Shown here piece after piece: positions 9,318 to 61,727 of a DNA stretch of 64,000 nt. The position numbers and the translations under genes were made by a program. The stretch spans positions 2,046,001-2,110,000 of the forward strand of contig NZ_CP027707.1 in the NCBI RefSeq assembly GCF_003850345.1, read 5' to 3'. The stretch is from Pseudomonas chlororaphis subsp. piscium (GTDB lineage Bacteria > Pseudomonadota > Gammaproteobacteria > Pseudomonadales > Pseudomonadaceae). Below the pieces are notes generated by a model that saw nothing but the letters and a program-made list of their open reading frames with translations, was not told where the DNA came from and searched no databases. Position 1 is the first letter of the stretch. Each line of letters starts with the position of its first letter.

Positions 9318-10508
9318 ATGGCTTTCGTAGCGCAAATCAAGATTCCCGCCACCTACATGCGTGGCGGCACCAGCAAGGGCGTGTTCTTCAGCCTGCAAGA
9401 CCTGCCCGAGGCGGCGCAGCTGCCGGGCGCGGCCCGCGATGCGTTGCTGTTGCGGGTGATCGGCAGCCCCGACCCGTACGACAAGCAGATCGACGGCATG
9501 GGCGGCGCCACGTCCAGCACCAGCAAGACGGTGATCCTGTCGAAAAGCATCAAGCCCGGTCACGACGTGGATTACCTGTTTGGCCAGGTGTCTATCGACA
9601 AGCCTTTTGTCGATTGGAGCGGCAACTGCGGCAACCTGTCGGCGGCGGTCGGTTCCTTCGCCATCAGCAGCGGCCTGGTGGATGCCGAGCGCATCCCGCA
9701 GAACGGCGTGGCGGTGGTGCGTATCTGGCAGGCCAATATCGGCAAGACCATCATCGCCCATGTGCCGATGACCAACGGCGCGGTGCAGGAAACCGGTGAT
9801 TTCGAACTGGATGGCGTGACCTTCCCGGCGGCCGAGGTGCAGCTGGAGTTCATGGATCCGGCAGCCGAGGAGGAGGGCGCCGGTGGCTCGATGTTCTCCA
9901 CCGGTAATCTGGTGGACGACCTGGAGGTGCCGGGCGTCGGGACTTTCAAGGCCACCATGATCAATGCAGGGATCCCGACCATCTTCATCAATGCCCGCGA
10001 CATCGGCTACAGCGGTACCGAGCTGCAGGGCGATATCAATGGCGACCCCAAGGCGCTGGCGATGTTCGAGACCATCCGCGCCCACGGCGCGCTGCGCATG
10101 GGGCTGATCCAGCACCTGGACGAAGCGGCCAAGCGCCAGCACACGCCCAAGGTTGCCTTTGTCGCGCCGCCCGCGGACTACCAGGCTTCCAGCGGCAAGG
10201 CGGTGAAGGTTGCGGATGTCGATCTGCTGGTGCGCGCATTGTCCATGGGCAAGCTGCACCACGCGATGATGGGCACCGCCGCGGTGGCCATCGGCACGGC
10301 GGCGGCGATCCCCGGGACCCTGGTCAACCTGGCGGCCGGCGGCGGTGAGCGCAGCGCGGTGCGTTTCGGTCACCCGTCGGGGACCTTGCGCGTCGGCGCC
10401 GAAGCCGTGCAGGACAACGGCGAATGGAGCGTGACCAAGGCCATCATGAGCCGCAGCGCACGGGTCTTGATGGAAGGCTGGGTGCGTGTGCCTGGCGACG
10501 CTTTCTAA
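9318..10508 (+). CDS. prpF: 2-Methylaconitate cis-trans isomerase PrpF
   Basis: A 396-residue protein of the PrpF family, which has a diaminopimelate epimerase-like fold. The N-terminal motif MRGGTSKGVFF is typical. It isomerises the 2-methylaconitate made by AcnD so that aconitase can continue the cycle. The ATG at 9318 is chosen because it begins the conserved N-terminus; the frame is open back to 9258 with arginine-rich, unlikely sequence. It belongs to the prp operon between acnD and prpD. Confidence 0.94.
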   Translation: MAFVAQIKIPATYMRGGTSKGVFFSLQDLPEAAQLPGAARDALLLRVIGSPDPYDKQIDGMGGATSSTSKTVILSKSIKPGHDVDYLFGQVSIDKPFVDWSGNCGNLSAAVGSFAISSGLVDAERIPQNGVAVVRIWQANIGKTIIAHVPMTNGAVQETGDFELDGVTFPAAEVQLEFMDPAAEEEGAGGSMFSTGNLVDDLEVPGVGTFKATMINAGIPTIFINARDIGYSGTELQGDINGDPKALAMFETIRAHGALRMGLIQHLDEAAKRQHTPKVAFVAPPADYQASSGKAVKVADVDLLVRALSMGKLHHAMMGTAAVAIGTAAAIPGTLVNLAAGGGERSAVRFGHPSGTLRVGAEAVQDNGEWSVTKAIMSRSARVLMEGWVRVPGDAF

Positions 10509-21455: not shown

Positions 21456-22217
21456 TCAGGCCGAGAGTGCTGCCGCCAGGGCCGCCTCGGAAAGGGCTGG
21501 CAGTTGTGCGCCGCAAGCGGCCACCTCTCCGACGACCAGGATGGCCGGGCTTTTCAGTTGGAAGGCGTGGGCATCGTCCTGCATGGCCTGCAGATCGCTC
21601 CGGCACAGGCGCTGCTCGGGCAGGGACGCGTTTTCAATCATGGCCACCGGGGTATGCGGCGCCAGGCCGCCAGCGATCAGCTGTTCGCGTATCTCGCCCA
21701 GTTTGGCCACTCCCATATAGATCACCAGCGTCGTACCGCTTTGCGCCAGAGCCTGCCAATTCAGGCTGCTGTCGTCCTGGGTATGGGCCGTCAGCAGGGT
21801 GACGCCACGGGCGACACCGCGCAGGGTCAGCGGGATCCCGCACTGGGTAGCCCCCGCCAGGCCGGCGGTGATGCCGTTCACCAGCTCCACCTCGACACCA
21901 CGTTCCTGCAGCCACTGCGCTTCTTCACCGCCACGGCCGAAGATGCACGGATCGCCGCCCTTGAGGCGTACCACGCACTTGCCATGACGGGCGTAGCGCA
22001 GCATCAGCCGGTGAATGAACGCCTGGGGCGTCGAACGACAGCCACCGCGTTTACCTACGGCAATGACCCGTGCCCGGGGGCAGTGCTCCAGCACCGCCGG
22101 ATTCACCAGGTCGTCGATCAGCACCACATCGGCGTCGCCCAGGGCTCGCACGGCCTTGAGGGTCAGCAGTTCAGGATCGCCAGGGCCCGCACCCACCAGC
22201 CAGACTTTTGCGCTCAT
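21456..22217 (-). CDS. cobA: Uroporphyrinogen-III C-methyltransferase (SUMT)
   Basis: A 253-residue SUMT enzyme making precorrin-2 from uroporphyrinogen III with SAM. The conserved VGAGPGDPELLTLKA is near the N-terminus, and GDPCIFGRGGEEA and the hexapeptide-like GITAG region follow. It is the last gene of the nirB-nirD-nitrate reductase-cobA operon (10-base gap), where it supplies the siroheme path needed by nitrite reductase. Confidence 0.93.
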   Translation of the reverse strand: MSAKVWLVGAGPGDPELLTLKAVRALGDADVVLIDDLVNPAVLEHCPRARVIAVGKRGGCRSTPQAFIHRLMLRYARHGKCVVRLKGGDPCIFGRGGEEAQWLQERGVEVELVNGITAGLAGATQCGIPLTLRGVARGVTLLTAHTQDDSSLNWQALAQSGTTLVIYMGVAKLGEIREQLIAGGLAPHTPVAMIENASLPEQRLCRSDLQAMQDDAHAFQLKSPAILVVGEVAACGAQLPALSEAALAAALSA

Positions 22218-22227
22218 ATTCGTTTCC

Positions 22228-24945
22228 TCACAGGGGGATTGCGACGGGCTGTGCCGAGCTGGCCAGCAGACGTTTGATTTCGGGGACGCAGGAGCCGCAT
22301 TGAGTGCCGCAGCCCAGTTCCTGTTTCAGGCCATTGAGGTCCAGGCCGCGGGAGATCCCGGCGCAGACCGCGTTCTGGCTGACGTTCTTGCAGTTGCACA
22401 AGGTCTTGCCACTCACGGCGATCAACCCGGCCGCCCCTGGCGGTGCGCTCATTGGCGCCAGCAGCCAGCGGCGCAGTTGCTCATCGGCCTTGCCCTCCAG
22501 CCACAGGTTCTGCAGCCAGTGCTGGGCCAGGGTTTCACCGGCCAGGCGAATGGCGGTGATCCGTCCCTGTTCGATGCGTACCCGCTTGCCGATGGAGCGC
22601 CGTGGATCGTCATAGGCCAGCACCGGGCCTTCGTTGAGCCCCAGCAACTGGTCGATGTCCTTGAGCAGCTGTGGTGCCGGCGCCTCGGCGTTGGCCACCC
22701 GCAGCAGCAGGGCCGGGCGTTCGCGACCGGCCAGGCTCAGGCTGACGTAGGCGAAGTTTTCGCAGAGCGGACGCAGAGCTTCGAAGTGCCGCTGCACGTC
22801 GCCTTCGATCAGGGCGAACAGCTGCCACGGCAGCTGCACCGGCTCCAGGCGTACACCGCTGTGCTTGAGTTCCGGCTGCTTGGACAGTGGGTCGAATGCT
22901 GGTTGGGTCACGGCATTGACGCCACCCTTGAGAAACCGATCGCCCCAATGCATCGGCAGAAAAGCCTGGCCCGGACGCACGCTGTCGTCGTCCGCCACGG
23001 CGACTATCACGCTGCCGCGACGGCTTTTCAGCGACACCAGGTCACCCGCTTGCAGGTTCTGCCGCCGCAGCTCGTCCGGGTGCAGGCTGAGGACGGCTTC
23101 GCTGACATGCCCAAACAGCTGGGCCGCGGTGCCGGTGCGGCTCATGCCGTGCCATTGATCTCGCAGGCGGCCGGTGATCAGGGTCAGGGGGAAACGTGCA
23201 TCACGCTGTTCCTTGGCCGCGCGATACGGGTCGCTGACGAACTGTGCCCGCCCGCTGGCGGTGGGGAAGCGGCCGTCAACGTACAGCCGCGGTGTCCCTT
23301 GTTCGGCGCCGGCGGGGAAGGGCCATTGCTGCGGGCCCAGTTGGTCGATCAGCGCGTGACTGATGCCGGAAAGGTCCAGGTCGCGGCCGCGGGTCAGCAG
23401 TTTGTATTCATCGAACAGCTGGGCAGGCGTATCCAGGGCGAACAGGCTGGGTTGTTGCGGGCGCAGGCGCTGTTCCAGGCGCCGGGCAAAGTCCAGGGTG
23501 ATGGCCCAGTCCGGACGTGCTTCGCCTGGAGCGGCCACGGCGCGACGCACATGGGAGATGCGCCGTTCCGAGTTGGTCACGCTGCCTTCCTTCTCGCCCC
23601 AGCTGGCGGCGGGCAGCAGCAGGTCGGCAAAGGCCGCGGTCTCGGTGGTGCGGAAGGCTTCCTGCAGGACCACGAACGGGCAATTCAGCAAGGCTTCCCG
23701 CACCGCGTTCTGGTCAGGCAACGACTGTGCCGGGTTGGTGCAGGCGATCCACAGTGCCTTGATCTTGCCGCCGCGCAGCTGTTCGAACAGCTCGATCGCG
23801 GTCAGGCCGGGGTTGGCCGGCAATTGCTCGACGCCCCAATAGGCCGCGACCTCAGCCCGATGCTCCGGGTTGGCGGCGTCCCGGTGCCCCGGCAGCAGGT
23901 TCGACAGGCTGCCGGTTTCCCGGCCACCCATGGCATTCGGCTGGCCGGTGAGGGAGAAAGGGCCAGCCCCGGGGCGACCGATCTGCCCGGTGGCCAGGTG
24001 CAGGTTGATCAGCGCGCTGTTTTTCGCGCTGCCAGCACTGGACTGGTTCAGCCCCATGCACCACAGCGACAGGAAGCTCGGCGCGGTGCCGACCCATTCG
24101 GCGCACTGGCGCAACTGCTCGACGCTGATGCCGCACAGCTGCGCGACCATGTGCGGGCTGTAGTCGTGGACCAGGTTCTTCAGCTCGGCCAGGCCTTCGG
24201 TGTGCGCCTGGATGAAGTCGCGATCGATCCAATCCTGCCACAGCAGCAGATGCAGGATGCCGTGGAACAGCGCGACATCGGTGCCGGGCAGGATCGCCAG
24301 GTGCAGGTCGGCCAGGTCGCAAGTGTCGGTGCGCCGTGGGTCGATGACGATCACCTTCATCTGCGGGCGCAGGCGTTTGGCCTGTTCCAGGCGGCGGAAC
24401 AGCACCGGATGGGCGTAGGCCATGTTGCTGCCGACGATCATCACGCAGTCGCTCAGTTCGAGGTCTTCGTAGTTGCAGGGTGGGGCGTCGGCGCCCAGGC
24501 TGCGTTTATAGCCGACCACCGCCGAAGACATGCACAGCCGCGAATTGCTGTCGATGTTGTTGGTGCCCACCAGGGCCCGGGCCAGCTTATTGAAGGTGTA
24601 GTAGTCCTCGGTGAGCAATTGCCCGGAGATATAGAAGGCCACGCTGTCCGGGCCGTGTTCGGCGATGGTTTCGGCAAATAGGTTGGCCGCATGCTCCAGC
24701 GCGGTGTCCCAGTCGGTGCGGCTGCGGGCCAGGGCCTTGCCCAGGCGCAATTCCGGGTACAGGGCGCGGGCCGCGAGGTCGCCGGTCAGGTGCAGGGTGG
24801 AACCCTTGCTGCACAGTTTGCCGTGATTGGCCGGGTGGCTCGGGTCGCCACTGACGCCGAGGATGCGTTCGCCGTCGTGCTCGATCAGCACGCCACAGCC
24901 AACGCCGCAGTAACAGCAGGTCGAGGCGGTCGTTTGGTGGTTCAT
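22228..24945 (-). CDS. nasC: Assimilatory nitrate reductase catalytic subunit (molybdopterin, with C-terminal 2Fe-2S domain)
   Basis: A 905-residue molybdopterin oxidoreductase reducing nitrate to nitrite in the cytoplasm. The N-terminal 4Fe-4S cysteines are C10, C13, C17 and C45. No twin-arginine signal is present, as expected for an assimilatory enzyme. The last 55 residues form a BFD-like 2Fe-2S domain with the pattern CNCKNV...CGTQCGSC. Its ATG overlaps the nirD stop by one base. No separate electron-transfer subunit gene is seen nearby, so a ferredoxin or flavodoxin, or an unlinked reductase, is presumably the donor. The symbol varies (nasA, nasB or nasC) between species. Confidence 0.92.
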   Translation of the reverse strand: MNHQTTASTCCYCGVGCGVLIEHDGERILGVSGDPSHPANHGKLCSKGSTLHLTGDLAARALYPELRLGKALARSRTDWDTALEHAANLFAETIAEHGPDSVAFYISGQLLTEDYYTFNKLARALVGTNNIDSNSRLCMSSAVVGYKRSLGADAPPCNYEDLELSDCVMIVGSNMAYAHPVLFRRLEQAKRLRPQMKVIVIDPRRTDTCDLADLHLAILPGTDVALFHGILHLLLWQDWIDRDFIQAHTEGLAELKNLVHDYSPHMVAQLCGISVEQLRQCAEWVGTAPSFLSLWCMGLNQSSAGSAKNSALINLHLATGQIGRPGAGPFSLTGQPNAMGGRETGSLSNLLPGHRDAANPEHRAEVAAYWGVEQLPANPGLTAIELFEQLRGGKIKALWIACTNPAQSLPDQNAVREALLNCPFVVLQEAFRTTETAAFADLLLPAASWGEKEGSVTNSERRISHVRRAVAAPGEARPDWAITLDFARRLEQRLRPQQPSLFALDTPAQLFDEYKLLTRGRDLDLSGISHALIDQLGPQQWPFPAGAEQGTPRLYVDGRFPTASGRAQFVSDPYRAAKEQRDARFPLTLITGRLRDQWHGMSRTGTAAQLFGHVSEAVLSLHPDELRRQNLQAGDLVSLKSRRGSVIVAVADDDSVRPGQAFLPMHWGDRFLKGGVNAVTQPAFDPLSKQPELKHSGVRLEPVQLPWQLFALIEGDVQRHFEALRPLCENFAYVSLSLAGRERPALLLRVANAEAPAPQLLKDIDQLLGLNEGPVLAYDDPRRSIGKRVRIEQGRITAIRLAGETLAQHWLQNLWLEGKADEQLRRWLLAPMSAPPGAAGLIAVSGKTLCNCKNVSQNAVCAGISRGLDLNGLKQELGCGTQCGSCVPEIKRLLASSAQPVAIPL

Positions 24946-25262
24946 CAGCCGGCATCCCGCAGGGCCAGCAGCACGCGGCCGTTTTCCACCCGCGCCAGAT
25001 GGTGGTGGGCGCAGCCGATATCCGGTGCCTGCGCCTCGCCGGACTCCAGGTCGATCTGCCAGTTGTGCAGCGGGCAGGCGACCTTCTTGCCGTAGATCAG
25101 CCCCTGGGACAGCGGCCCGCCCTTGTGCGGGCAGCGGTCGTCGAGGGCGAAGACCTCGTCGTCGCTGGTGCGAAAGATCGCGATGTCGCCCTTGGGGCCG
25201 TTGACGATGCGCGAGCCCAGGGCGTTGATTTCGTCCAGGGCGCAGATATCCAGCCAGTTCAT
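24945..25262 (-). CDS. nirD: Nitrite reductase small subunit NirD
   Basis: A 105-residue Rieske-fold protein, the small subunit of NADH-nitrite reductase. Both Rieske ligand pairs are present: C44-P-H46 and C63-P-L-H66. The E. coli homologue lacks these ligands, so this copy may carry a 2Fe-2S cluster. The start codon overlaps the nirB stop (ATGA) and the stop overlaps the start of the nitrate reductase gene by one base, so the operon is tightly coupled. Confidence 0.92.
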   Translation of the reverse strand: MNWLDICALDEINALGSRIVNGPKGDIAIFRTSDDEVFALDDRCPHKGGPLSQGLIYGKKVACPLHNWQIDLESGEAQAPDIGCAHHHLARVENGRVLLALRDAG

Positions 25263-27712
25263 GGCTGCACCTCCAGCTGCTTGACGCGGATCGGCTCGAA
25301 CTCTTTTTTCAGCTGCGGCTGTTCCAGGCGCTCCTTCCAAGGGTCCTGTTCGAAGGACAGGGCGAATTGCAGGCGCTCGTTGAGGGCCTTGCGCCGCTGT
25401 GGGTCTTCGATGATGGCTTGCTTGATATGCGCCATGCCGACCCGTTGCAAGTAGTGCACGGTGCGCTCCAGGTAGAAGGCTTCCTCGCGGTACAGCTGCA
25501 GGAAAGCACCGTTGTATTCGCGCACCTCGTCGGCGGTTTTCAGTTTGACGAAGAACTCCGCGACCTCGGTCTTGATCCCGCCATTGCCACCGATGTACAT
25601 CTCCCAGCCCGAGTCGACGCCGATGATGCCGACGTCCTTGATCCCGGCCTCGGCGCAGTTGCGCGGGCAGCCGGAGACCGCCAGCTTGACCTTGTGCGGC
25701 GACCACATGTTGAACAGGTCGTGTTCCAGTTCGATGCCCAGCTGGGTGGAGTTCTGCGTGCCGAAGCGGCAGAACTCGCTGCCGACGCAGGTTTTCACGG
25801 TGCGGATGGACTTGCCGTAGGCATGGCCGGAGGGCATGTCCAGGTCCTTCCAGACCCCGGGCAGGTCCTGCTTCTTGATACCCAGAAGGTCGATGCGCTG
25901 GCCGCCGGTGACCTTGACCATCGGTACCTGGTACTTGTCCGCCACGTCGGCGATGCGCCGCAGTTCGGAAGGCGTGGTGACGCCGCCCCACATCCGCGGC
26001 ACCACCGAATAGGTGCCGTCTTTCTGGATATTGGCGTGGGCCCGTTCGTTGATCAGGCGCGATTGCGGATCGTCCTTGGCCTCGCCCGGCCAGGTGGAGA
26101 TCAGGTAGTAGTTCAGCGCCGGGCGGCAGGTGGCGCAGCCGTTGGGCGTGCGCCAGTTCAGGTAGCTCATGGCGCCAGCTATGGTCAGCAGGTGCTGTTC
26201 GCGGATCGCTTGGCGGATCTGCCCGTGGTTGAGGTCGCTGCAGCCGCAGATGGCCTTCTCGCTTTTCGGCTTGACGTCGGCCGCGCCGCCCACGGTGTTG
26301 ATCAGGATCTGTTCCACCAGGCCGGCACAGGAACCGCAGGAGCTGGCGGCCTTGGTGTGCTTCTTGACCTCGTCGACGCTGAACAGGCCATGCTCCTGGA
26401 TCGCCTTGACAATGGTGCCTTTGCACACGCCGTTGCAGCCGCAGACTTCGGCGCTGTCGGCCATGCTCATAGCCTTGTCCTGGCCCTGGTGGCCGACGTC
26501 GCCCAAGGCGTTCTCGCCGAACATCAGGTGGTCGCGGATCTCGCCGATGGCGTGGTTCTCGCGGATCTGCCGGAAGTACCAGCCGCCGTCGGCGGTGTCG
26601 CCGTACAGGCAGGCGCCGACCAGGACGTCATCCTTGATCACCAGCTTCTTGTACACGCCGCCGATGGGGTCGGAGAGGGTGATGGTCTCGGTGCCTTCGC
26701 CGCCCATGAAGTCGCCGGCGGAGAACAGGTCGATACCGGTGACTTTCAACTTGGTCGAGGTCACCGAGCCCTGGTAGCGGGCGAAGCCCAGTTGCGCCAG
26801 GTGGTTGGCGCAGACCTTGGCCTGCTCGAACAGCGGCGCCACCAGGCCGTAGGCGATACCACGGTGGCTGGCGCATTCGCCAATGGCGTAGATGCGCGGG
26901 TCGTAGGTCTGCAGGGTGTCGTTGACCAGGATCCCGCGGCTGCAAGGCAGGCCGGCTTTTTCCGCCAGCTCGGTATTGGGCCGGATGCCCGCGGCCATTA
27001 CCACCAGGTCGGCGGGGATGATGTCGCCGTTCTTGAACTGCACCGAGCCGACCCGGCCATTGCCCGCGTCGTGCAGGGCCTGGGTCTGTTCGCTCAGGCG
27101 GAATTTCAGGCCACGGCTTTCCAGGGCGGTTTGCAGCAGCTGGCCGCTGGTCTTGTCCAGCTGGCGCTCCAGCAGCCATTCGCCGATGTGCACCACGGTC
27201 ACGTCCATGCCACGCAGCATCAGGCCGTTGGCGGCTTCCAGGCCGAGCAGGCCGCCGCCGATGACCGCCGCGTGCTTGTGGGTCTTGGCGGTGTCAATCA
27301 TCGCCTGGGTGTCGGCGATATCTCGGTAGCCGATCACGCCCTGCAGGTCGTTGCCGGGAATCGGCAGGATGAACGGGGTCGAGCCGGTGGCGATCAGCAG
27401 GCGGTCGTACTCGGCTTCGCTGCCGTCTTCGGCGATCACCCGGCGCTTGACCCGGTCGATCTGCACCACCTTACGGTTGAGCAGCAGCTTGATGTTGTTG
27501 TCCAGGTACCAGCTCAGGTCGTTGAGTACGATCTCTTCGAAAGTCTGTTCGCCGGCCAGTACGGGGGAGAGCAGGATGCGGTTGTAGTTGGTGTGGGGTT
27601 CCGCGCCAAAGACTGTGATGTCGTACAGCTCATTGCTCAGCTTGAGCAGCTCTTCCAGGGTGCGAACCCCGGCCATGCCGTTGCCGATCATCACCAGTTT
27701 GAGTTTCTTCAT
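25259..27712 (-). CDS. nirB: NAD(P)H-nitrite reductase large subunit NirB
   Basis: An 817-residue siroheme enzyme reducing nitrite to ammonium. N-terminal FAD/NAD domains (VMIGNGMAGVRTLEEL) are followed by two BFD-like Cys-rich segments. The siroheme/4Fe-4S ligands are C642-x5-C648 and C682-x3-C686. The ATG at 27712 begins the conserved MKKLKLVMIGNGMAG. The longer frame upstream runs through the leader RNA and is not translated sequence. It is the first gene of the operon and lies behind a sigma-54 promoter and an antitermination leader. Confidence 0.95.
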   Translation of the reverse strand: MKKLKLVMIGNGMAGVRTLEELLKLSNELYDITVFGAEPHTNYNRILLSPVLAGEQTFEEIVLNDLSWYLDNNIKLLLNRKVVQIDRVKRRVIAEDGSEAEYDRLLIATGSTPFILPIPGNDLQGVIGYRDIADTQAMIDTAKTHKHAAVIGGGLLGLEAANGLMLRGMDVTVVHIGEWLLERQLDKTSGQLLQTALESRGLKFRLSEQTQALHDAGNGRVGSVQFKNGDIIPADLVVMAAGIRPNTELAEKAGLPCSRGILVNDTLQTYDPRIYAIGECASHRGIAYGLVAPLFEQAKVCANHLAQLGFARYQGSVTSTKLKVTGIDLFSAGDFMGGEGTETITLSDPIGGVYKKLVIKDDVLVGACLYGDTADGGWYFRQIRENHAIGEIRDHLMFGENALGDVGHQGQDKAMSMADSAEVCGCNGVCKGTIVKAIQEHGLFSVDEVKKHTKAASSCGSCAGLVEQILINTVGGAADVKPKSEKAICGCSDLNHGQIRQAIREQHLLTIAGAMSYLNWRTPNGCATCRPALNYYLISTWPGEAKDDPQSRLINERAHANIQKDGTYSVVPRMWGGVTTPSELRRIADVADKYQVPMVKVTGGQRIDLLGIKKQDLPGVWKDLDMPSGHAYGKSIRTVKTCVGSEFCRFGTQNSTQLGIELEHDLFNMWSPHKVKLAVSGCPRNCAEAGIKDVGIIGVDSGWEMYIGGNGGIKTEVAEFFVKLKTADEVREYNGAFLQLYREEAFYLERTVHYLQRVGMAHIKQAIIEDPQRRKALNERLQFALSFEQDPWKERLEQPQLKKEFEPIRVKQLEVQP

Positions 27713-27774
27713 TTCGCTCTCCGCGTAGACAGGCCGTCGGGCATGCCGGGCCTGGCTCGATAAAGGTTGCGCAA

Positions 27775-27861
27775 ACAAAAAAGGCGTCCCGCCAGTTGCC
27801 TGGCAGGACGCCTTTGTCCGGTCCCGTTCTCTCGGGAAAACCCATCCTTCGTCGTTGAAGG
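27775..27861 (-). promoter_or_regulatory. NasT (ANTAR) antitermination leader of nirB: tandem hexaloop hairpins plus terminator
   Basis: Three short hairpins with six-base loops follow one another on the minus strand. The first is 27861-27846 (5-bp stem, loop AACGAC). The second is 27837-27822 (5-bp stem, loop AGAGAA). The third is 27819-27806 (4-bp stem, loop AAAGGC). Every loop has A at position 1 and G at position 4, the mark of ANTAR-bound RNA. A 15-bp terminator stem with GCAA loop (27814-27781) and a T run follow; it shares 27806-27814 with the third hairpin, so the two cannot form together. NasT, encoded at 31397-31972, is the expected ligand. Confidence 0.88.
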
Positions 27862-27891
27862 CCGGGTCGTATGTGCTGTTGGGAGAGTTAA

Positions 27892-27907
27892 TGCAGTGGT
27901 TGTGCCA
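27892..27907 (-). promoter_or_regulatory. Sigma-54 (-24/-12) promoter of nirB
   Basis: On the minus strand TTGGCACAACCACTGCATT gives GG (27906-27905) and GC (27894-27893) separated by exactly ten bases. This matches the TGGCAC-N5-TTGC consensus well. Transcription should start near 27881, about 20 bases before the first hexaloop hairpin. Confidence 0.8.
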
Positions 27908-28010
27908 AGTTCCGCCAATGGCGGTTTTAGCGGGGCTGAAAGCCTGTCTCAGGCCTGGGAGGAGGATTTTCTGCACCGATTCAAAGCGTCTTGCCCGTTT
28001 CTGGAGCAAC

Positions 28011-28160
28011 CTGTAGCCGCTGCCGAGCCCCGGCGAGGCTGCGATCGGGGCGCAGCCCCGTAAACCTGCCAGCTCGGTGTGCCTGACCTGCACGGTCGTT
28101 TGGATTGGCGCCCGCTATGCGGTCGAGCGCAGCCTCGCTGGGGCTCGACAGCGGCTACAG
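28011..28160. repeat. Long inverted repeat element (GTAGCCGCTGCC class)
   Basis: CTGTAGCCGCTGCCGAGC at the left end faces GCTCGACAGCGGCTACAG at the right end, with inner copies of GAGGCTGCGATCG and CGAGCGCAGCCTC. The same outer sequence recurs at 42390, 59003 and 61344. It is a second dispersed intergenic repeat family, distinct from the TGTAGGAGCGAG class. It fills the space between the nirB promoter region and the end of the kinase gene. Confidence 0.8.
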
Positions 28161-28174
28161 GGTTACGGGTGCTA

Positions 28175-29845
28175 TCAGTGATGCAGGAACAGGTACAGCA
28201 ACAGCAGGTTGAGCAACAGCGAGACCAGCGCCAGGGTGCGCCAGACCTTCAAGGGCTCGCGTTCCAGCAGCGGCCTGGGGCGCACGCTGAGGCTGCGGCG
28301 TTCGCCCTGTTCCAGCACCAGCAACCACTCTTCGGCGGTTTCATAACGCTGGGCCGGATCGGCCTGTACCGCGCGCTCCAGGCTCTCTTCGAGCCAGTCC
28401 GGCAGGTCCGGGCGATAACGGCTGGCGCTGACCGGGGTGGTGAAGCGCGGGCGCTGGAAGGCTTCGATTTCGCCGTAGGGAAAATGCCCGGTCAGCAAGT
28501 GGTAGAGGGTCACGCCCACTGCGTACAGGTCCTGCCGCGGTGTCGGCGCCACGCCGCTGAAAGCCTCTGGGGCGATATAGCTCGGGGTGCCGGGCAGCAG
28601 GTGCGCCTGGTCCTCGGACAAGCCGGGGCAATAGGCCAGGCCGAAGTCCAGCAGGCGCAGCTCGCCGTCGTCCCCGAGCAGCAGGTTGTCCGGCTTGATG
28701 TCGCGGTGCAGGATCTGCCGGCGGTGCAGCAGACCCACGGCCCGCAGCAGACGCTCGGCCAGGTCCTGCCACTGCGCCAGCGGCAAGGGGCCATGTTGTC
28801 GCAGATAATCGGCCAGGGTCTGCCCCGGGTATTCGCGCATCACGTAATACAGATGCTGGCGGGCGGTCGCGGCATGCACTTCGGGAAAGTGCCGGCCGGC
28901 CACCCGACGCAGGAACCACTCCTCTGACAGCAGCGATTGCCCGGCCTGGTGATCGTCGTGCAGATGGCCGGGCAGGGTTTTCAGCAGCCAGGGTTGTTGT
29001 TGCGCATCGAGCACGCGGTACAGCAGGGATTGCTGGCTCTGCCCGACCACCTCGGCGACCTGCCAGCCTTCGAAGTGCTGGCCCGGCTTGAGAGCCGGCG
29101 GCAGTGGCCATTGCTGCAAGTGAATCAGGGCATCGCCGATGGAGCTTTCGCCCAGGGCCTCGACCCGCACCAGCAGGGCGCTGGCATTGTCCTGGCTGCC
29201 GGCCAGGTGCGCGGCGCTGACCAGGGTCTGCACCGCACTGTCGAGGTCGGGCTGGTCGCGCAGGATCGCGGCGATGGCGGTGTCGCCCAGGGTGGCCCAG
29301 ACCCCGTCGCTGAGCATCAGGAAACTTTCGTTTTCCCGCAGCTCGCCATCGAGGAAGTCCACCACCAGATGCTGGTCCAGGCCCAAGGCACGCTTGAGCA
29401 CGTGCTGCATGCCGGGCTGGTCCCAGACGTGATCGTCGCTGATCCGTTGCAACTGATCGGCGTGCCAGCGATAGACCCGGCAATCGCCGACATGGGCCAG
29501 GGTAAAACGTCGGCCGCGCAGCACCAGGGCGCTGACGGTAGTCAGCAGCGGCTGGCCGCCGCCGTTGGCCTGCAACCAGCGATTCTGTGCCAGCAGCAGG
29601 CGCTCCAGGGCTTGGGCCACGGCCCAGGTTTCCGGGGTGGCGTAGTAGTCCAGTGCCAGTGCCTGCAAGGTCGAGCGCGCGGCCAGGCCGCCGTCGGCGC
29701 ATTGGCTGACGCCGTCGGCGATGGCAAACAGCAGGCCCTTGCTGGCGGCCAGGGTCGGCGCCGGAGTGACCAGGCGCAAGGCGTCCTGGTTTTCCGTGCG
29801 CGGCCCGATGGCGCTGGCCTGGGCGTGGCTCAGTCGCAGGCTCAT
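28175..29845 (-). CDS. PP2C phosphatase-Ser/Thr protein kinase fusion with C-terminal membrane anchor
   Basis: A 556-residue two-enzyme protein. Residues 1 to about 235 form a PP2C-type phosphatase with its metal motifs (ENQD, ADGVS, HVGDCR, LSDGVW, SQDNAS). A Hanks-type kinase follows, with catalytic HRDIKPDN at 380-387, DFG, and GTPSYIAPE in the activation segment. The C-terminus is a membrane helix (LALVSLLLNLLLLYLF). The glycine-rich loop looks divergent (VVGQSQQS), but a Lys in LLKTL is kept. The gene starts seven bases after the nitrate transporter stop, so both lie in one operon. Its targets are unknown. Confidence 0.9.
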   Translation of the reverse strand: MSLRLSHAQASAIGPRTENQDALRLVTPAPTLAASKGLLFAIADGVSQCADGGLAARSTLQALALDYYATPETWAVAQALERLLLAQNRWLQANGGGQPLLTTVSALVLRGRRFTLAHVGDCRVYRWHADQLQRISDDHVWDQPGMQHVLKRALGLDQHLVVDFLDGELRENESFLMLSDGVWATLGDTAIAAILRDQPDLDSAVQTLVSAAHLAGSQDNASALLVRVEALGESSIGDALIHLQQWPLPPALKPGQHFEGWQVAEVVGQSQQSLLYRVLDAQQQPWLLKTLPGHLHDDHQAGQSLLSEEWFLRRVAGRHFPEVHAATARQHLYYVMREYPGQTLADYLRQHGPLPLAQWQDLAERLLRAVGLLHRRQILHRDIKPDNLLLGDDGELRLLDFGLAYCPGLSEDQAHLLPGTPSYIAPEAFSGVAPTPRQDLYAVGVTLYHLLTGHFPYGEIEAFQRPRFTTPVSASRYRPDLPDWLEESLERAVQADPAQRYETAEEWLLVLEQGERRSLSVRPRPLLEREPLKVWRTLALVSLLLNLLLLYLFLHH

Positions 29846-29852
29846 GGGCTGC

Positions 29853-31064
29853 TCAGACCCGCGCCGCGGTGACGGCAGCGGAGCCCCAGGTGGTCCGCCA
29901 GCGGCGTTTCACTCCGTGCAGGCCGAACCAGGCCAGCACGCCCAGGCTGGCGAACAGCCACAGGGCCAGTTGATAGCTGCCGGTGCTTTGCTTGATCGCG
30001 CCCATGCCCGCGGCCAGGGCGAAACCGCCAATGCCGCCGGCCATGCCGATCAGCCCGGTCATCACCCCGATCTCGCGGCGGAAACGTTGGGGCACCAGTT
30101 GGAACACCGCGCCGTTACCGGCACCCAGGCCGAGCATGGTGCACACGAACAGGGCCAGGGCCGCGTAGGAGCTTGGCAGGTTGAAACCGACCGCGGCGAT
30201 GCACACCGCCGCGACGCTGTACATCACCAGCAGGGTGCGAATGCCGCCGAAACGATCGGCCAGGGCGCCGCCCAGCGGCCGCATCAGGCTGCCACCGAAC
30301 ACGCAGGCGGCGGTGTAGTAGCCGGCGGTGACCGGGCTCAGGCCGTACTGGTCGTTGAAGTAGCCGGGCAGGGCGCTGGCCAGGCCGATGAAGCCGCCGA
30401 AGGTCACGCTGTAGAAGAACATGAACCACCAGCTGTCGCGGTCGCCCAGGGCCTTGAAGTAGTCGGCCATGGATTTGGCCTTGGGCCGTTCCGGGGCGTT
30501 CTTGGCCAGCCAGGCGAACAGCACCAGGGTCAGGACCAACGGGATCAGGGCGAAGCCGAACACGTTGCTCCAGCCGAAGGCGCCGGCCAGCAAGGGGGCG
30601 AACAGGGCCGCGAATACCGTGCCAGAGTTGCCGGCCCCGGCGATGCCCATCGCCTTGCCCTGGTGCTGTGGCGGATACCATTGCGAAGCCAGCGGCAGGG
30701 CCACGGCGAACGAGGCGCCGGCCATGCCCAGGAACAGCCCCAGCAGCAAGGCCTGTTCATAGCTGTGGATGCCCAGCTTCCAGGCGCAGAACAGCGCGCC
30801 GATGACAATCACCTGGCCGATCAGCCCGGCGGTCTTGGGCGACAGGCGATCGGCCAGCAGGCCCATGGCGAAGCGTAGCACCGCGCCGGCCAGGATCGGC
30901 GTGGCCACCATCAGCCCGCGCTGCTGGGTGGTCAGTTGCAGGTCGGCGGCGATCTGCACGGCCAGCGGGCCAAGCAGGTACCAGACCATGAAGCTCAGGT
31001 CGAAGTAGAGGAAGGCCGCGAACAATGTCGGGGTGTGGCCGGATTTCCAGAAGCTTGAATTCAT
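29853..31064 (-). CDS. nasA: Nitrate/nitrite transporter (NarK/NasA, MFS)
   Basis: A 403-residue major facilitator protein with about twelve hydrophobic segments and the NarK-type glycine-rich signatures (GLGAGNGAVFQLVP, GMAGGIGGFALA). It should import nitrate for the reductases encoded downstream. The start at 31064 follows GAGG. It is first in an operon with the phosphatase-kinase gene and has its own sigma-54 promoter and NasT-type leader. Confidence 0.93.
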   Translation of the reverse strand: MNSSFWKSGHTPTLFAAFLYFDLSFMVWYLLGPLAVQIAADLQLTTQQRGLMVATPILAGAVLRFAMGLLADRLSPKTAGLIGQVIVIGALFCAWKLGIHSYEQALLLGLFLGMAGASFAVALPLASQWYPPQHQGKAMGIAGAGNSGTVFAALFAPLLAGAFGWSNVFGFALIPLVLTLVLFAWLAKNAPERPKAKSMADYFKALGDRDSWWFMFFYSVTFGGFIGLASALPGYFNDQYGLSPVTAGYYTAACVFGGSLMRPLGGALADRFGGIRTLLVMYSVAAVCIAAVGFNLPSSYAALALFVCTMLGLGAGNGAVFQLVPQRFRREIGVMTGLIGMAGGIGGFALAAGMGAIKQSTGSYQLALWLFASLGVLAWFGLHGVKRRWRTTWGSAAVTAARV

Positions 31065-31164
31065 CGCGCACCTCAGCTGTTAAGAATCTCGAAAGGAGTC
31101 ATGAGCTTTTGCGTGGGGCGCCATTACGGCCGCTCCACCGGCCCCGGGCTGTGGGGCCAAAACG

Positions 31165-31247
31165 AAAAAACGCCGCAACCCGTTTCGCTAGGGCGAGAAG
31201 GGTGTGCGACGTCTTTGTCGTAGGTGGGGCAACCGCCGTTGGTTACC
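31165..31247 (-). promoter_or_regulatory. NasT (ANTAR) antitermination leader of the nitrate transporter gene
   Basis: The first hairpin, 31247-31228, has a 7-bp stem and loop AACGGC. The second, 31220-31207, has stem CGAC/GTCG and loop AAAGAC. Both loops have A1 and G4. The terminator stem (31211-31205 with 31177-31171, extended inside) ends in six T at 31170-31165 and overlaps the second hairpin at 31207-31211. NasT binding to the tandem hairpins should let RNA polymerase pass. Confidence 0.88.
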
Positions 31248-31262
31248 TGTGTCGATTACATA

Positions 31263-31276
31263 GCCAGATTTGTGCC
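31263..31276 (-). promoter_or_regulatory. Sigma-54 (-24/-12) promoter of the nitrate transporter operon
   Basis: TTGGCACAAATCTGGCTA on the minus strand has GG (31276-31275) and GC (31264-31263) ten bases apart. The -12 element is TGGC in place of TTGC. The predicted start is near 31252, just before the first hexaloop hairpin. Confidence 0.75.
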
Positions 31277-31301
31277 AAGAGTTGCAGTCCCGGTGTTCCT
31301 G

Positions 31302-31371
31302 ATCGCGGGCAAGCCTCGCTCCTACAGAAGAAGATTGTGAGTTTCCGTAGGAGCGAGGCTTGCCCGCGATG
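31302..31371. repeat. REP-type inverted repeat pair between nasA and nasT
   Basis: ATCGCGGGCAAGCCTCGCTC near the left end is the exact reverse of GAGCGAGGCTTGCCCGCGAT at the right end, with a 19-base spacer. It lies between the nasT stop and the nasA sigma-54 promoter. Confidence 0.9.
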
Positions 31372-31396
31372 GGGCCCGCACCGGCACCGCGAGCTT

Positions 31397-31972
31397 TCAG
31401 CCCAGCAACTCGCTCATGGCGATGATCTGTTCCGCCACCTGGATCAGCTTCTGCTGCCGGCTCATGGCCTGGCGGCGCATCAGGGTGTAGGCCTGTTCTT
31501 CGTTGCAGTCTTTCATCTTCATCAACAGGCCCTTGGCCAGCTCGATGCGCTTGCGCTCGGCCAACTGCTGGTCGCGGGCCTGCAGTTGCGCGCGCAGGGC
31601 CTGGTCGCTCTCGAAGCGGGCCATGGCCACATCGAGAATGGGTTGCAGGCGCTGGGCCTGGATGCCTTCGACTATGTAGGCACTGACCCCGGACTTGATG
31701 GCGTGGCGCATCACGTCGGGGTCGTGCTCGTCGGTGAACATCACGATTGGCCGTGGCTGGTCGCGGCTGACCAATACCACTTGCTCCATCACATCGCGGC
31801 TCGGTGACTCGGTATCGATCAGGATCACGTCCGGACGCACCGTTTCGACGCGCGTCGGCAGGTCGATGGTCAGGCCCGACTCGTCGATCACCTCGAAACC
31901 GGCTTCCATCAGGGCCGCCTTGAGCCGACCGACCTTCTTGGCGGTGTCGTTGATCAGCAGGATACGCAACAT
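31397..31972 (-). CDS. nasT: ANTAR-domain nitrate antiterminator NasT
   Basis: A 191-residue response-regulator-like protein. A receiver domain (1 to about 120, with D53 in LIDTES) is followed by a coiled linker and a C-terminal ANTAR RNA-binding domain (about 128-185, RKRIELAKGLLMKMKDCNEEQAY). In related bacteria NasT binds tandem hexaloop RNA hairpins and prevents termination in nitrate-assimilation leaders when NasS releases it. It lies 15 bases after nasS in the same operon. Three fitting leader RNAs are found in this window. Confidence 0.94.
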   Translation of the reverse strand: MLRILLINDTAKKVGRLKAALMEAGFEVIDESGLTIDLPTRVETVRPDVILIDTESPSRDVMEQVVLVSRDQPRPIVMFTDEHDPDVMRHAIKSGVSAYIVEGIQAQRLQPILDVAMARFESDQALRAQLQARDQQLAERKRIELAKGLLMKMKDCNEEQAYTLMRRQAMSRQQKLIQVAEQIIAMSELLG

Positions 31973-31987
31973 GGTCTCGGGCTCCTG

Positions 31988-33199
31988 TCAGCGGCTGGCG
32001 AGAAGAGGGGAGCTGTCGCTCATGGCGTGCAGCGGGAAGCTGCGGGCATAGGCGGCCGGGTCCGAACCGTCCCACCGCTTGCCGTCGATCAACTGGCTGC
32101 TGCGCATGTCCTGGCCCCAGGACGCGACACCGACGGCGGTGGCGGCTTCACGATAGAGCTCGAGTTGCTGCACCTGGCGCGCGATGCCCAGGTAGTCCGG
32201 GTCTTCGCGCAGCAAGCCCCAGCGGCGGAACTGGGTCATGAACCACATGCCGTCGGACAGATACGGCAGGTTGACCGCGCCTTCATTATGAAAGCGTAGC
32301 GCGTGCGGGTCCTGCCAGCGGTTGCCGAGGCCGTCGGCATACTCGCCGAGCAGACGCGGCTCGATGCAGTCCAGCGGTGCATCGAGGTAGTCGCTGGCGC
32401 TCAGCAGTTGCGCGGTGCTCTGGCGGTTCTCGCGGCTCTGCTCGATGAAGCGGCTGGCCTCGAGGATCGCCATGACCAAGGCCCGCGCGGTGTTCGGGTA
32501 CTGCTCGACGAAGGCGCGGGTGCAGCCGAGGACTTTTTCCGGGTGGTCGGGCCAGATCGCCTGGCTGGTGGCCAGGGTGAAGCCCAGGTCCTGGTTCACC
32601 GCGCTGGCGCTCCAGGGCTCGCCCACGCAAAAGCCGTCGATGCGCCCGGCCTGCAGGTGCGCGACCATTTGCGGCGGCGGCACCACCACGCTGTCGACAT
32701 CCTGCAACGGGTGGATGCCCTGGGCGGCCAGCCAGTAATACAGCCACATGGCGTGGGTGCCGGTGGGGAAGGTCTGGGCGAAGGTCAGCCTTGCCCGGCT
32801 TTGGTGCACATGCCGATGAAGCGCTTCAGGACTGGTCACGTTCAGGGCCTGCAGTTCCCGCGAGAGGTTGATGCTCTGGCCGTTCTGGTTCAGGCCCATC
32901 AGCACCGCCATGTCGCTGGCGTTGACCCCGCCGATGCCCAGGTGCACGGCGTAGATCAGACCGTACAGGCTGTGGGCGGCATCCAGCTCGCCACTCACCA
33001 GCTTGTCCCGCAGGTTGGCCCAGGACGCCTGGCGCTTGAGGTTCAGGGTCAGGCCGTAAGGCTGGGCGAAGCCCTGGGTGGCGGCGACCACCACCGAGGC
33101 GCAGTCGCTCAAGGCCATGAAGCCGAGGTTGATCGCGGTCTTTTCCGGGGCATCGCTGCCGTTGACCCAGGCCAGCGGGCTGACGGGGTGTTCATTCAT
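31988..33199 (-). CDS. nasS: Nitrate/nitrite sensor NasS (NrtA-like)
   Basis: A 403-residue protein of the nitrate-binding NrtA/NasS family, without a signal peptide, so it acts in the cytoplasm. It sequesters NasT until nitrate or nitrite binds. The start at 33199 is chosen for the N-terminus MNEHPVSPLAWVNGSDAPEK and a GGAGG ten bases upstream. The longer open frame to 33367 runs through the leader RNA. It is co-transcribed with nasT. Confidence 0.93.
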   Translation of the reverse strand: MNEHPVSPLAWVNGSDAPEKTAINLGFMALSDCASVVVAATQGFAQPYGLTLNLKRQASWANLRDKLVSGELDAAHSLYGLIYAVHLGIGGVNASDMAVLMGLNQNGQSINLSRELQALNVTSPEALHRHVHQSRARLTFAQTFPTGTHAMWLYYWLAAQGIHPLQDVDSVVVPPPQMVAHLQAGRIDGFCVGEPWSASAVNQDLGFTLATSQAIWPDHPEKVLGCTRAFVEQYPNTARALVMAILEASRFIEQSRENRQSTAQLLSASDYLDAPLDCIEPRLLGEYADGLGNRWQDPHALRFHNEGAVNLPYLSDGMWFMTQFRRWGLLREDPDYLGIARQVQQLELYREAATAVGVASWGQDMRSSQLIDGKRWDGSDPAAYARSFPLHAMSDSSPLLASR

Positions 33200-33212
33200 G
33201 GGGTGGCGTCCT

Positions 33213-33250
33213 CCATAAAAAAGCGGCCATAAAAAGCTTCCATAAAAAAA
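33213..33250 (-). repeat. Triplicated U-rich TTTTTATGG motif in the nasS leader
   Basis: On the minus strand T7ATGG, T5ATGG and T6ATGG follow one another with a 13-15 base period between the leader terminator and the nasS ribosome-binding site. The first T run belongs to the terminator. The ATG at the first copy opens a 15-codon frame whose TGA overlaps the nasS ATG. No Shine-Dalgarno sequence precedes it, so translation is doubtful. Confidence 0.5.
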
Positions 33251-33329
33251 CGTCGCACCCGCACGCCAGGCAGAGCCGGCGGGGTAACGACGCCTTTGTC
33301 TTTCGACCCACGCCGCCATTGGCCTGGGT
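33244..33329 (-). promoter_or_regulatory. NasT (ANTAR) antitermination leader of nasS-nasT itself
   Basis: The first hairpin, 33329-33306, has a 9-bp stem with one mismatch and loop AATGGC. The second, 33300-33289, has stem GAC/GTC and loop AAAGGC, the same loop as in the nirB leader. A terminator (33292-33288 with 33255-33251 plus inner pairs) with seven T follows and overlaps the second hairpin. The arrangement implies that NasT stimulates its own synthesis. Confidence 0.82.
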
Positions 33330-33347
33330 GCTGATGCCGGTTGTGGT

Positions 33348-33361
33348 GCAAGGCATATGCC
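33348..33361 (-). promoter_or_regulatory. Sigma-54 (-24/-12) promoter of nasS-nasT
   Basis: TGGCATATGCCTTGCACC on the minus strand gives GG (33361-33360) and GC (33349-33348) ten bases apart and an intact TTGCA -12 box. Transcription is expected near 33336, a few bases before the first hairpin. Confidence 0.75.
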
Positions 33362-33411
33362 ATTCACCGCTGATTTCGCCGCGTGCCTCGCCTGCGAGCC
33401 CCATGCCCGGC

Positions 33412-33417
33412 TATAAT
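33412..33417 (+). promoter_or_regulatory. Probable -10 box of pyrD
   Basis: A perfect TATAAT lies 39 bases before the pyrD ATG, in the region divergent from nasS. No clear -35 box is visible. Confidence 0.5.
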
Positions 33418-33455
33418 CGCCGCCTCATTTCGCCGCCACCGAGTCAAGCCCGCCC

Positions 33456-34475
33456 ATGTATACCCTGGCCCGCCAGCTGTTGTTCAAACTCTCCCCGGAA
33501 ACCTCCCATGATCTGTCCCTGGACCTGATCGGTGCGGGCGGGCGTTTGGGCCTCAATGGCTTGCTGTGCAAGGCGCCGGCGCAGATGCCGGTGAAGGTCA
33601 TGGGCCTGGACTTCCCGAACCCGGTCGGCCTCGCGGCTGGCCTGGACAAGAACGGTGCGGCCATCGACGGTTTTGCCCAATTGGGTTTCGGTTTCGTCGA
33701 AATCGGCACCATCACCCCGCGTCCACAGCCGGGCAACCCCAAGCCACGGATCTTCCGCCTGCCGGAAGCCGAAGCCATCATCAACCGCATGGGCTTCAAC
33801 AACCTGGGCGTCGATCAGTTGCTGGCCCGGGTGGCGGCCGCCAAGTACAAGGGCGTGCTGGGGATCAACATCGGCAAGAACTTCGACACCCCAGTCGAGC
33901 GCGCGGTGGATGACTACCTGATCTGCCTGGACAAGGTGTATGCCCATGCCAGCTACGTGACGGTCAACGTCAGTTCGCCCAACACCCCGGGCCTGCGCAG
34001 CCTGCAGTTCGGCGAGTCGCTCAAGCAGCTGCTCGGCGCCCTCAGCCAGCGTCAGCAGGAGCTGGCGGTGCAGCATGGCAAGCGGGTACCGCTGGCGATC
34101 AAGATCGCCCCGGACATGACCGACGAAGAAACCGCCGAAGTGGCGCGGGCCCTGATCGAGACCGGGATGGATGCGGTCATCGCCACCAACACCACCCTGA
34201 GCCGTGTCGGTGTCGAAGGCATGGAGCATGGTGACGAGGCGGGCGGCCTGTCCGGCGCGCCGGTGCGCGACAAGAGCACCCACGCCGTGAAGGTGCTGGC
34301 GGGCGAGCTGGCCGGGCGTTTGCCGATCATCGCGGTGGGCGGTATCACCGAAGGCAAGCATGCGGCGGAAAAGATCGCCGCCGGCGCCAGCCTGGTGCAG
34401 TTGTATTCGGGCTTCATCTACAAGGGCCCGGCGCTGATTCGCGAATCGGTGGACGCGATCGCGGCGTTGCGCTGA
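33456..34475 (+). CDS. pyrD: Dihydroorotate dehydrogenase (quinone), class 2
   Basis: A 339-residue flavoprotein oxidising dihydroorotate to orotate with ubiquinone in pyrimidine synthesis. The N-terminal amphipathic helix of class 2 enzymes ([19 protein letters not shown]) contacts the membrane. FMN-binding and catalytic stretches seen include [22 protein letters not shown] (with the class 2 catalytic Ser) and AVGGI. It stands alone between the nas genes and rmf. Confidence 0.96.
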
Positions 34476-34818: not shown

Positions 34819-34848
34819 AGGGTGTTTCCCTCACTTGTTGACTGTCTT

Positions 34849-34989
34849 ATGTCCCGTCGACCTCGTTTGAGGCCGGGCAGAATGCTTCTGCCGTTGGTGC
34901 TCGCTGCCGGCGTCGCGAGCGTGGCGTTGGCGTCATTGCGGCGCCAACCTGAGTTGATTTCTAACCAATGCGTCACAACGTGGGAATGA
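34849..34989 (+). CDS. Possible 46-residue small membrane protein, doubtful
   Basis: A short frame divergent from rmf encodes an Arg-rich N-terminus, one hydrophobic segment (MLLPLVLAAGVASVALASL) and a polar tail. The in-frame ATG at 34753 would overlap rmf. No family is recognised and no clear ribosome-binding site is seen. A terminator-like hairpin 37 bases after the stop is mild support. Confidence 0.28.
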   Translation: MSRRPRLRPGRMLLPLVLAAGVASVALASLRRQPELISNQCVTTWE

Positions 34990-60954: not shown

Positions 60955-61204
60955 GTGGGTACCTACGACTCTCTGAAAGATGAAAGCCGCCAATCTCGCT
61001 TCCACACGAGAGGGTGGCAGCCATGCGTGGGTGTGGAAGACCGGGGAGTCCTTGGTACCCAAAACCCGGCGCACCCGAAGGTGCCCCACGCATGGTCGCC
61101 ATAACACGGACCTGCGGACGCAAAACGTCAGCAGTCGCTGTTGAGCGCTGTACCAATGACTTTTCCAGACTTCCACATCCGGGTCGTTGAAACTGCAACG
61201 ACCC
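60955..61204 (-). promoter_or_regulatory. Structured leader RNA upstream of the DUF6124-like gene
   Basis: Four pairings can be seen on the minus-strand transcript: a 9-bp 5' hairpin (61204-61196 with 61189-61181); an 11-bp stem (61095-61085 with 61031-61021) that encloses two small hairpins; a 9-bp stem (61039-61031 with 61007-60999); and a 7-bp pairing of GGGTACC (61060-61054) with the Shine-Dalgarno region GGTACCC (60963-60957). The second and third stems share base 61031 and interlock, so they should exclude each other. This is the layout of a translational switch; the ligand is unknown. Confidence 0.5.
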
Positions 61205-61617: not shown

Positions 61618-61727
61618 GGTGACCCCATTGGTCCCCTCGCAACGATCAGCCGTGAACCCGGTCAGGCCTGGAAGGGAGCAGCCGCAGCGGTGACATTGTG
61701 TGCCGGGGTGTGGCTGGTGGGGTTGCC
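61618..61727 (+). ncRNA. ffs: 4.5S RNA (bacterial small signal recognition particle RNA)
   Basis: The stretch GGTCAGGCCTGGAAGGGAGC (tetraloop and symmetric internal loop that bind Ffh) followed by AGCCGCAGCGG and TGTGCCGGGGTGTGGCTGG matches the 4.5S RNA apical domain. The 5' end GGTGACCCCATTGG pairs with the 3' end. The exact ends are estimated from this closing stem. As in P. aeruginosa, the gene lies downstream of ligA. Confidence 0.92.

Follow-up and report, generated by a model that had tools for sequence, protein, structure and literature searches.

Three nitrate leaders of one Pseudomonas chlororaphis locus, that of nasST among them, as a candidate double-gated NasT regulon

Which genes stand behind the nitrate-responsive antiterminator NasT in Pseudomonas, and could the operon that encodes NasT and its sensor NasS stand behind such a gate itself? 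The question is raised by a 64,000-nucleotide stretch of Pseudomonas chlororaphis subsp. piscium (contig NZ_CP027707.1, positions 2,046,001 to 2,110,000; hereafter the window), in which nirB, a nitrate transporter gene and nasS are each preceded by a sigma-54 promoter element, tandem hairpins with six-base loops and a terminator. We hold it very probable that the three transcription units are each gated twice, by NtrC- and sigma-54-dependent initiation and by NasT antitermination, the nasST operon included. The nasST leader is the new part of this picture; the autogenous loop and its patchy retention are the interesting part. The three leaders are built as follows, P2 being the last hairpin of each.

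33347..33363, minus strand: sigma-54 -24/-12 element of nasS, ATGGCATATGCCTTGCA (sequence reading)
33306..33329, minus strand: nasS leader hairpin P1, loop AATGGC (fold; covariation)
33289..33300, minus strand: nasS leader hairpin P2, loop AAAGGC, stem GAC/GTC (fold; loop conservation)
33244..33297, minus strand: nasS leader terminator, T-run 33244-33250; its 5' arm includes the P2 loop and the P2 3' arm (fold)
31262..31278, minus strand: sigma-54 element of the transporter, TTGGCACAAATCTGGCT (sequence reading)
31228..31247, minus strand: transporter leader hairpin P1, loop AACGGC (fold; inside the narK RNA match)
31207..31220, minus strand: transporter leader hairpin P2, loop AAAGAC (fold)
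31165..31216, minus strand: transporter leader terminator overlapping P2, T-run 31165-31170 (fold)
27892..27908, minus strand: sigma-54 element of nirB, TTGGCACAACCACTGCA (sequence reading)
27839..27868, minus strand: nirB leader hairpin H1, loop AACGAC (fold; covariation; inside the P11 match)
27822..27837, minus strand: nirB leader hairpin H2, loop AGAGAA, nearly invariant (fold; alignment)
27806..27819, minus strand: nirB leader hairpin P2, loop AAAGGC (fold; alignment)
27777..27815, minus strand: nirB leader terminator overlapping P2, T-run 27777-27782 (fold)

The initial annotation had described these leaders, and re-reading the coordinates recovered every element that it named: a -24/-12 element of the sigma-54 type GG-N10-GC, its GG and GC standing exactly ten bases apart, at nirB, the transporter and nasS; two hexaloop hairpins in each leader, three at nirB, with A at position 1 and G at position 4 of every loop (AACGAC, AGAGAA, AAAGGC; AACGGC, AAAGAC; AATGGC, AAAGGC); and a terminator whose T-run was located and whose overlap with the last hairpin is seen in the folds of all three. 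In the whole window, the succession of a sigma-54 site, a last-hairpin core and a T-run, a pattern composed after the leaders had been seen, occurs in three places only, and these are the three leaders. A similar pattern is found within 300 bases of the gene in relatives at nasS (61 of 80 loci), the transporter (69 of 70) and nirB (45 of 46), and nowhere within 300 bases ahead of nasT (0/80), the kinase gene (0/69) or cobA (0/52); first-order shuffles yield it in 2 of 7,940 cases, six genes summed.

The overlap of the last hairpin with the terminator results in a choice between two structures. If transcription is assumed to begin 11 bases past the -12 GC, RNAs that end at the last hairpin form only the hexaloop hairpins, and RNAs that end at the T-run keep the earlier hairpins while the last one becomes the terminator, in all three leaders. 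Among the sequences having a T-run at the right place, the window included, the three bases of the P2 3' arm are all paired in the terminator in 62 of 63 nasS, 69 of 70 transporter and 45 of 46 nirB leaders; L045 (L numbers designate retrieved loci) has the hairpin core without such a T-run and falls outside this count, and the nasS exception is L052, with an insertion in the terminator. Judged by their sequence, P2 and the terminator are mutually exclusive in all three leaders. This is the arrangement of an ANTAR dual-hexaloop element, with neighbouring A1/G4 hexaloop hairpins, the second of them overlapping an intrinsic terminator, and an ANTAR protein encoded in the genome. The L052 insertion (9720-10000, P. 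caricapapayae) is of about 160 bases and splits the terminator, the flanks on both sides being leader-like, and the distance from the core to nasS is 244 bases there versus 84-85 in L053 and L058.

How widely is the nasS leader kept? It is present in 63 of the 80 nasS loci, which were the best by identity and are biased toward near relatives; in 62 the P2 core was found by pattern and in L052 by covariance model, and L070 and L074 have leaders with a poor P1. Of the 80 loci, 77 have a sigma-54 site that matches at least 9 of 12 positions and lies no more than 300 bases from nasS, versus 8.6% of shuffles. Across 60 sequences, eight of the nine P1 stem pairs show changes on both sides, and the covariation score of the structure is 0.266, versus 0.104 +/- 0.010 for shuffles (0 of 500 as high), a control that kinship among the sequences can inflate, and at most 0.093 for slid structures. 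The P2 loop has A1 and G4 in 60 of 60 sequences with position 3 free (A 22, T 24, C 13, G 1), and the P1 loop has A1/G4 in 56. In the leaders of L011, L015 and L019, 12-15 additional bases separate P1 from P2, which would make them natural experiments on how long the linker may be.

Two even draws of genomes extend this picture, absence being defined as no match by the nasS-leader model at E<=0.01 (the decayed leader of G269/L119 is counted as absent). In the genus draw of 149 genomes, 127 with nasT and 22 without, 91 of the 127 have a match at 1.1-1.7 kb before nasT and on its strand; three more matches closely follow nasT and nine lie elsewhere, including two in genomes that lack nasT (E 0.001 and 0.004). 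The family draw of 79 genomes holds 53 nasT copies in 50 genomes, and 30 of the copies have a nasS-leader match: all copies in four genera (5/5, 9/9, 4/4, 2/2), 6 of 7 in the window's genus and 4 of 7 in another, with no match at the nasT copies of five genera (0/6, 0/3, 0/7, 0/2, 0/1). Three genomes of this draw carry two nasST operons, and all six copies are matched.

Two of the three leaders are already catalogued. The nirB leader is the Rfam P11 RNA (RF00625, 27783-27919, 122 bits versus a gathering cut-off of 70) and the transporter leader is the narK RNA (RF03032, 31206-31276, 78.9 bits versus 43.2). The nasS leader scores 33.9 bits (E 0.0011) with the narK RNA model and is not filed as narK RNA because this lies under the cut-off of 43.2; it is the second best narK RNA place listed for the whole 7.07-Mb single-contig Pseudomonas genome, 150 of 1,790 first-look candidates having been scored. 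It joins the P11 and narK RNA leaders as a third one that is built alike but not catalogued. In the open literature searched we recognised neither a description of a nasST leader nor anything treating narK RNA together with ANTAR; Romeo 2012, Nie 2024, Marogi 2024, Weinberg 2017 and the work on Azotobacter were outside the scope of this search, and a prior description is possible. ANTAR matches preceding genes for nitrate transporters and nitrite reductases are listed in general terms in PMC3369931 (this source and those below are cited from excerpts). Rfam files P11 under genes, with the annotation of a small RNA, and P11 is discussed as a small RNA of P. aeruginosa (PMC12080996), which would suit the idea that the leaders are nitrate riboswitches or trans-acting small RNAs and not attenuators read by NasT. 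Such an idea is extremely improbable: antitermination by NasT at the nirBD leader NalA is reported (PMC12830290), every leader lies directly ahead of its gene and has a terminator, and the alignments appear to hold no conserved core besides the hexaloops. The riboswitch reading was given up.

That one motif precedes several genes is also suggested by a covariance model trained on nasS leaders only, called R1. In 81 sources totalling 1.63 Mb, R1 at E<=1 finds, beyond the nasS leaders, 71 further places whose scores are individually weak: 37 transporter leaders, 27 nirB leaders, one exported NasS-like gene (L075) and six elsewhere. Genome-wide the nasS leader alone stands out, the next place reaching 22.5 bits (E 0.048; 150 of 5,575 candidates scored). 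The places L144-L148 and L150, which are weak and in which no sigma-54 site was seen, were set aside. In genomes of the family, R1 also pointed to similarly built leaders ahead of a gene for an exported NrtA-like protein with an ABC (ATP-binding cassette) permease in L151 (1077-2440; Pfam) and ahead of stand-alone cobA in L152 and L153 (Pfam for L153). The exported NrtA-like genes of L151 (1077-2440) and L075 (4980-5270) have a sigma-54 site, tandem hexaloops and a terminator, and would represent a further type of NasT target. In the sister genus of L152 and L153, cobA has its own sigma-54 and hexaloop leader, yet the nasST match is 0 of 7.

Is the nasS leader read by NasT at all? It might act as a plain attenuator or terminator or be a copy in decay, with nasST under NtrC alone and the targets of NasT confined to the nirB and transporter leaders. 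The observations that weigh against a NasT-read leader, or against the leaders and their common reading in general, are the following. At the nasS-leader place, 36 of the 127 nasT-bearing genus genomes have no match. Of 16 nasT loci fetched from outside the family, 13 were examined; a sigma-54-like site precedes nasT by 55-262 bases in 11 of them, and the scan found tandem hexaloops followed by a terminator in none. A1 is not absolute, the P2 loop starting with G in the sister-genus loci L119 and L137-L140, and 4 of the 60 aligned P1 loops lack A1/G4. For the nasS set, RNAalifold by itself predicts no more than three pairs, all of P2; and when the nasS segment is lengthened to begin 16 bases before the assumed start and to end 14 bases beyond the T-run, its minimum-energy fold has neither P1 nor the terminator. 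R1 gives the transporter and nirB leaders of the window only 11.7 and 12.5 bits, with one chance-like place at 11.8, and a loose whole-genome form of the pattern is not discriminating (28 matches versus 26 in the reversed control, nirB being missed). A plain attenuator, however, would need neither the compensated P1 stem with its loop A1/G4 kept in 56 of 60 sequences nor a P2 loop that has A1 and G4 in every one of the 60 but is free at position 3; and where nasST is duplicated, the leader stands at both copies in 3 of 3 genomes. We consider the plain attenuator unlikely and retain the reading in which NasT acts on the nasS leader.

The patchy distribution can be placed on a tree of 80 NasS and NasT rows (the window and 79 loci), built by a quick method without bootstrap and rooted only for drawing. 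The 16 leaderless rows need six state changes, at least four of them on well-supported branches. We read this as one origin in the family followed by repeated loss of the nasS leader, the tree itself giving no direction of gain or loss. The P. putida group contributes eight rows in one clade without the nasS leader, all of them with the transporter leader. L028 (P. psychrophila) has kept the sigma-54 site 53 bases before nasS and the leader is gone; in L119 the T-run and A1 of P2 are both lost. The other gates are kept where the gene is in reach, in 69 of 70 loci at the transporter and in 45 of 46 at nirB. In L033 (Pseudomonas sp. Irchel 3E20), the sigma-54 site is kept 206 bases ahead of nasS, and a sequence that by eye resembles a repetitive extragenic palindromic (REP) element occupies the leader's place.

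The nirB leader differs by its third hexaloop. Its loops H1, H2 and P2 all have A1 and G4 without exception in the 45 sequences aligned, which come from 44 loci and the window. In H1, 9 of the 11 pairs have changed on both sides, and the two middle outer pairs do not form in 26-27 of the 45 sequences; H2 and P2 hardly vary, which speaks neither for nor against pairing. Loop-to-loop spacing, read by pattern in 40 rows, is 22-25 bases from H1 to H2 and 17-18 bases from H2 to P2; in the transporter leader, P1 and P2 are 22-31 bases apart, 23 or 24 in 55 of 69. In the model for EutV, the hexaloops are contacted successively and 20 added linker bases abolish its action (PMC8934654). A relay along the nirB leader is thinkable because EutV contacts hexaloops one by one and is sensitive to the linker.

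What protein would read these leaders, and what would start them? The genes concerned follow each other on the minus strand in the order nasS, nasT, NarK-type transporter, PP2C-kinase fusion, nirB, nirD (assigned by eye), molybdopterin enzyme and cobA.

31988..33199, minus strand: nasS, nitrate sensor, NMT1_2, NrtA-like (domain search)
31397..31972, minus strand: nasT, receiver-like and ANTAR domains (ANTAR 60.8 bits; receiver 29.8 bits, just below the cut-off of 30.2)
29853..31064, minus strand: NarK-type nitrate/nitrite transporter of the major facilitator superfamily, nasA in Pseudomonas usage (TIGR00886, 311.4 bits, barely below the cut-off of 311.7)
28175..29845, minus strand: PP2C phosphatase-Ser/Thr kinase fusion, 3' of the transporter, without a leader of its own (domain search)
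25259..27712, minus strand: nirB, nitrite reductase large subunit (TIGR02374, 941.5 bits)
22228..24945, minus strand: molybdopterin oxidoreductase, taken to be the nirB operon's assimilatory nitrate reductase (domain search; no NCBIfam model above its cut-off)
21456..22217, minus strand: cobA, uroporphyrinogen-III C-methyltransferase (domain and NCBIfam searches)

As in a NasS-NasT system, an NrtA-like sensor adjoins a receiver-ANTAR protein; the best match of NasS among the retrieved loci is a P. chlororaphis record, at 97%. In the whole genome, no protein other than NasT (61.6 bits) exceeds the Pfam ANTAR cut-off, the next reaching 14.1, and the solved chains closest to it are 1s8n, 6wsh, 1qo0 (AmiR) and 4akk (a nitrate regulatory protein). 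In Paracoccus, nitrate separates NasS from NasT, and NasT binds the nasA leader (PMC3795266); deletion of nasT in P. putida abolishes growth on nitrate (PMC7261876). The nirBD leader NalA is a reported NasT target with initiation by NtrC and sigma-54, according to the review PMC12830290. In P. aeruginosa PA14, deletions of ntrB/ntrC lower nasS 121/91-fold, nasT 93/83-fold, nasA 16/650-fold and nirB 50/137-fold (PMC7214821, Table 4).

The initiation step also has its contrary evidence. Under nitrogen limitation, an rpoN mutant of P. putida KT2440 still raises nasA 12.4-fold and nirB 5.2-fold (PMC7801951), so dependence on RpoN may not be strict in that strain. A scan for NtrC sites does no better than shuffles at the transporter, gives at nasS a signal that falls within the divergent gene 33456-34475, and at nirB reaches a mean best match of 8.9 of 12 versus 7.6 for shuffles with no single clear site. 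The P. putida data would fit real leaders driven by a sigma-70 and not a sigma-54 promoter. We find this very improbable, since the sigma-54 site keeps a narrow range of distances ahead of the hairpins in relatives and the NtrBC dependence in PA14 is strong; no sigma-70-like site was found in 27600-33600, which says little, as shuffles average 0.6. The initial annotation had proposed an NtrC/RpoN and NasT double gate over uptake, reduction and sensing, and this is still the best reading in view of the sole ANTAR protein, the NalA report and the PA14 data.

The mechanism we propose combines two signals. Nitrogen shortage would lead phosphorylated NtrC and sigma-54 to initiate a short leader RNA at each of the units. 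As long as nitrate is absent, NasS would hold NasT and the leader would form its terminator, yielding only RNAs of about 87-105 nucleotides. Nitrate or nitrite would make NasS free NasT, which would bind the A1/G4 hexaloops as they emerge; bound NasT would keep P2 folded and its 3' arm unavailable to the terminator, and the polymerase would continue. We infer the action of NasT on the transporter and nasS leaders, and with it the autogenous loop. Because nasST is one of the three gated units, NasT would raise its own synthesis and that of its inhibitor NasS, a positive loop tempered by the NasS made alongside.

Several features around these units were seen in passing. A long inverted repeat, GATCGCGGGCAAGCCTCGCTCCTAC and its near-complement (31301-31370), lies between nasT and the transporter promoter and resembles a Pseudomonas REP pair. 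From the nasS terminator stem to the start codon (33200-33250), three T-runs follow in series with ATGG after each; L001 likewise has three T-runs ahead of nasS, but different letters after two of them. A relative of the PP2C-kinase fusion is present in 69 of the fetched nasS loci too. Elsewhere in the window lie an rmf RNA (RF01755, 117 bits, 34837-34968, minus strand) and a C4 antisense RNA (RF01695, 69 bits, 61010-61106, minus strand), the latter near the signal recognition particle RNA (61626-61722) and perhaps part of a prophage remnant.

What would such a circuit mean for the cell? P11, narK RNA and the uncatalogued nasS leader are joined here into one proposed NasT regulon, and a nitrate regulator operon is suggested to sit behind its own gate, which predicts a feedback in the nitrogen supply of soil and rhizosphere bacteria. 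Natural controls are at hand because close relatives lack only the nasST gate. A more tentative view, doubtful as a whole, sees the nasST leader as a self-amplifying and possibly switch-like nitrate memory, with repeated loss of the loop in lineages and a three-hexaloop relay at nirB. If it holds, freed NasT would by antitermination raise NasT and NasS together and sharpen or delay the response; lineages would have dropped the loop repeatedly, keeping promoter and target gates, and the genus would offer a natural series of looped and open circuits. At nirB, H1 and H2, whose spacing of 22-25 bases resembles that of the hairpin pair of the other leaders, would load NasT and pass it to P2, 17-18 bases on. 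Nitrite reductase would then need a higher level of NasT than uptake and sensing, so that sensing and import would come first and reduction later.

How does this locus compare with the known systems? The nirB leader matches P11 in full and is followed by the genes that also follow the NalA/P11 leader of nirBD-PA1779-cobA in P. aeruginosa and P. putida (PMC12830290), from which it shows no essential difference; the three A1/G4 hexaloops, in 45 of 45 sequences, are described here from sequence. The transporter leader is a full match to the narK RNA RF03032, which Rfam types as Cis-reg and which we read as a NasT attenuator with its terminator beyond the 72-position match. With the Klebsiella nasF leader read by NasR and the eut leaders read by EutV (PMC3369931, PMC8934654), the window shares tandem A1/G4 hexaloops and the overlap of P2 with the terminator; unlike these systems, as the excerpts present them, it has NasT as reader with a separate sensor NasS, a sigma-54-like promoter and a third hexaloop at nirB. 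Paracoccus denitrificans nasTS (PMC5424462) is likewise an NtrC-dependent regulator operon with a structural-gene leader read by NasT, but hairpins are described in the excerpt for nasA only, whereas nasST has its own leader in the window. Finally, in the ami operon (amiEBCRS; PMC3795266), the gene of the ANTAR protein AmiR potentially lies behind an attenuator that an ANTAR protein reads; AmiR is encoded there, according to that source, by a distal gene of its target operon, whereas in the window the regulator operon has a separate leader dedicated to it.

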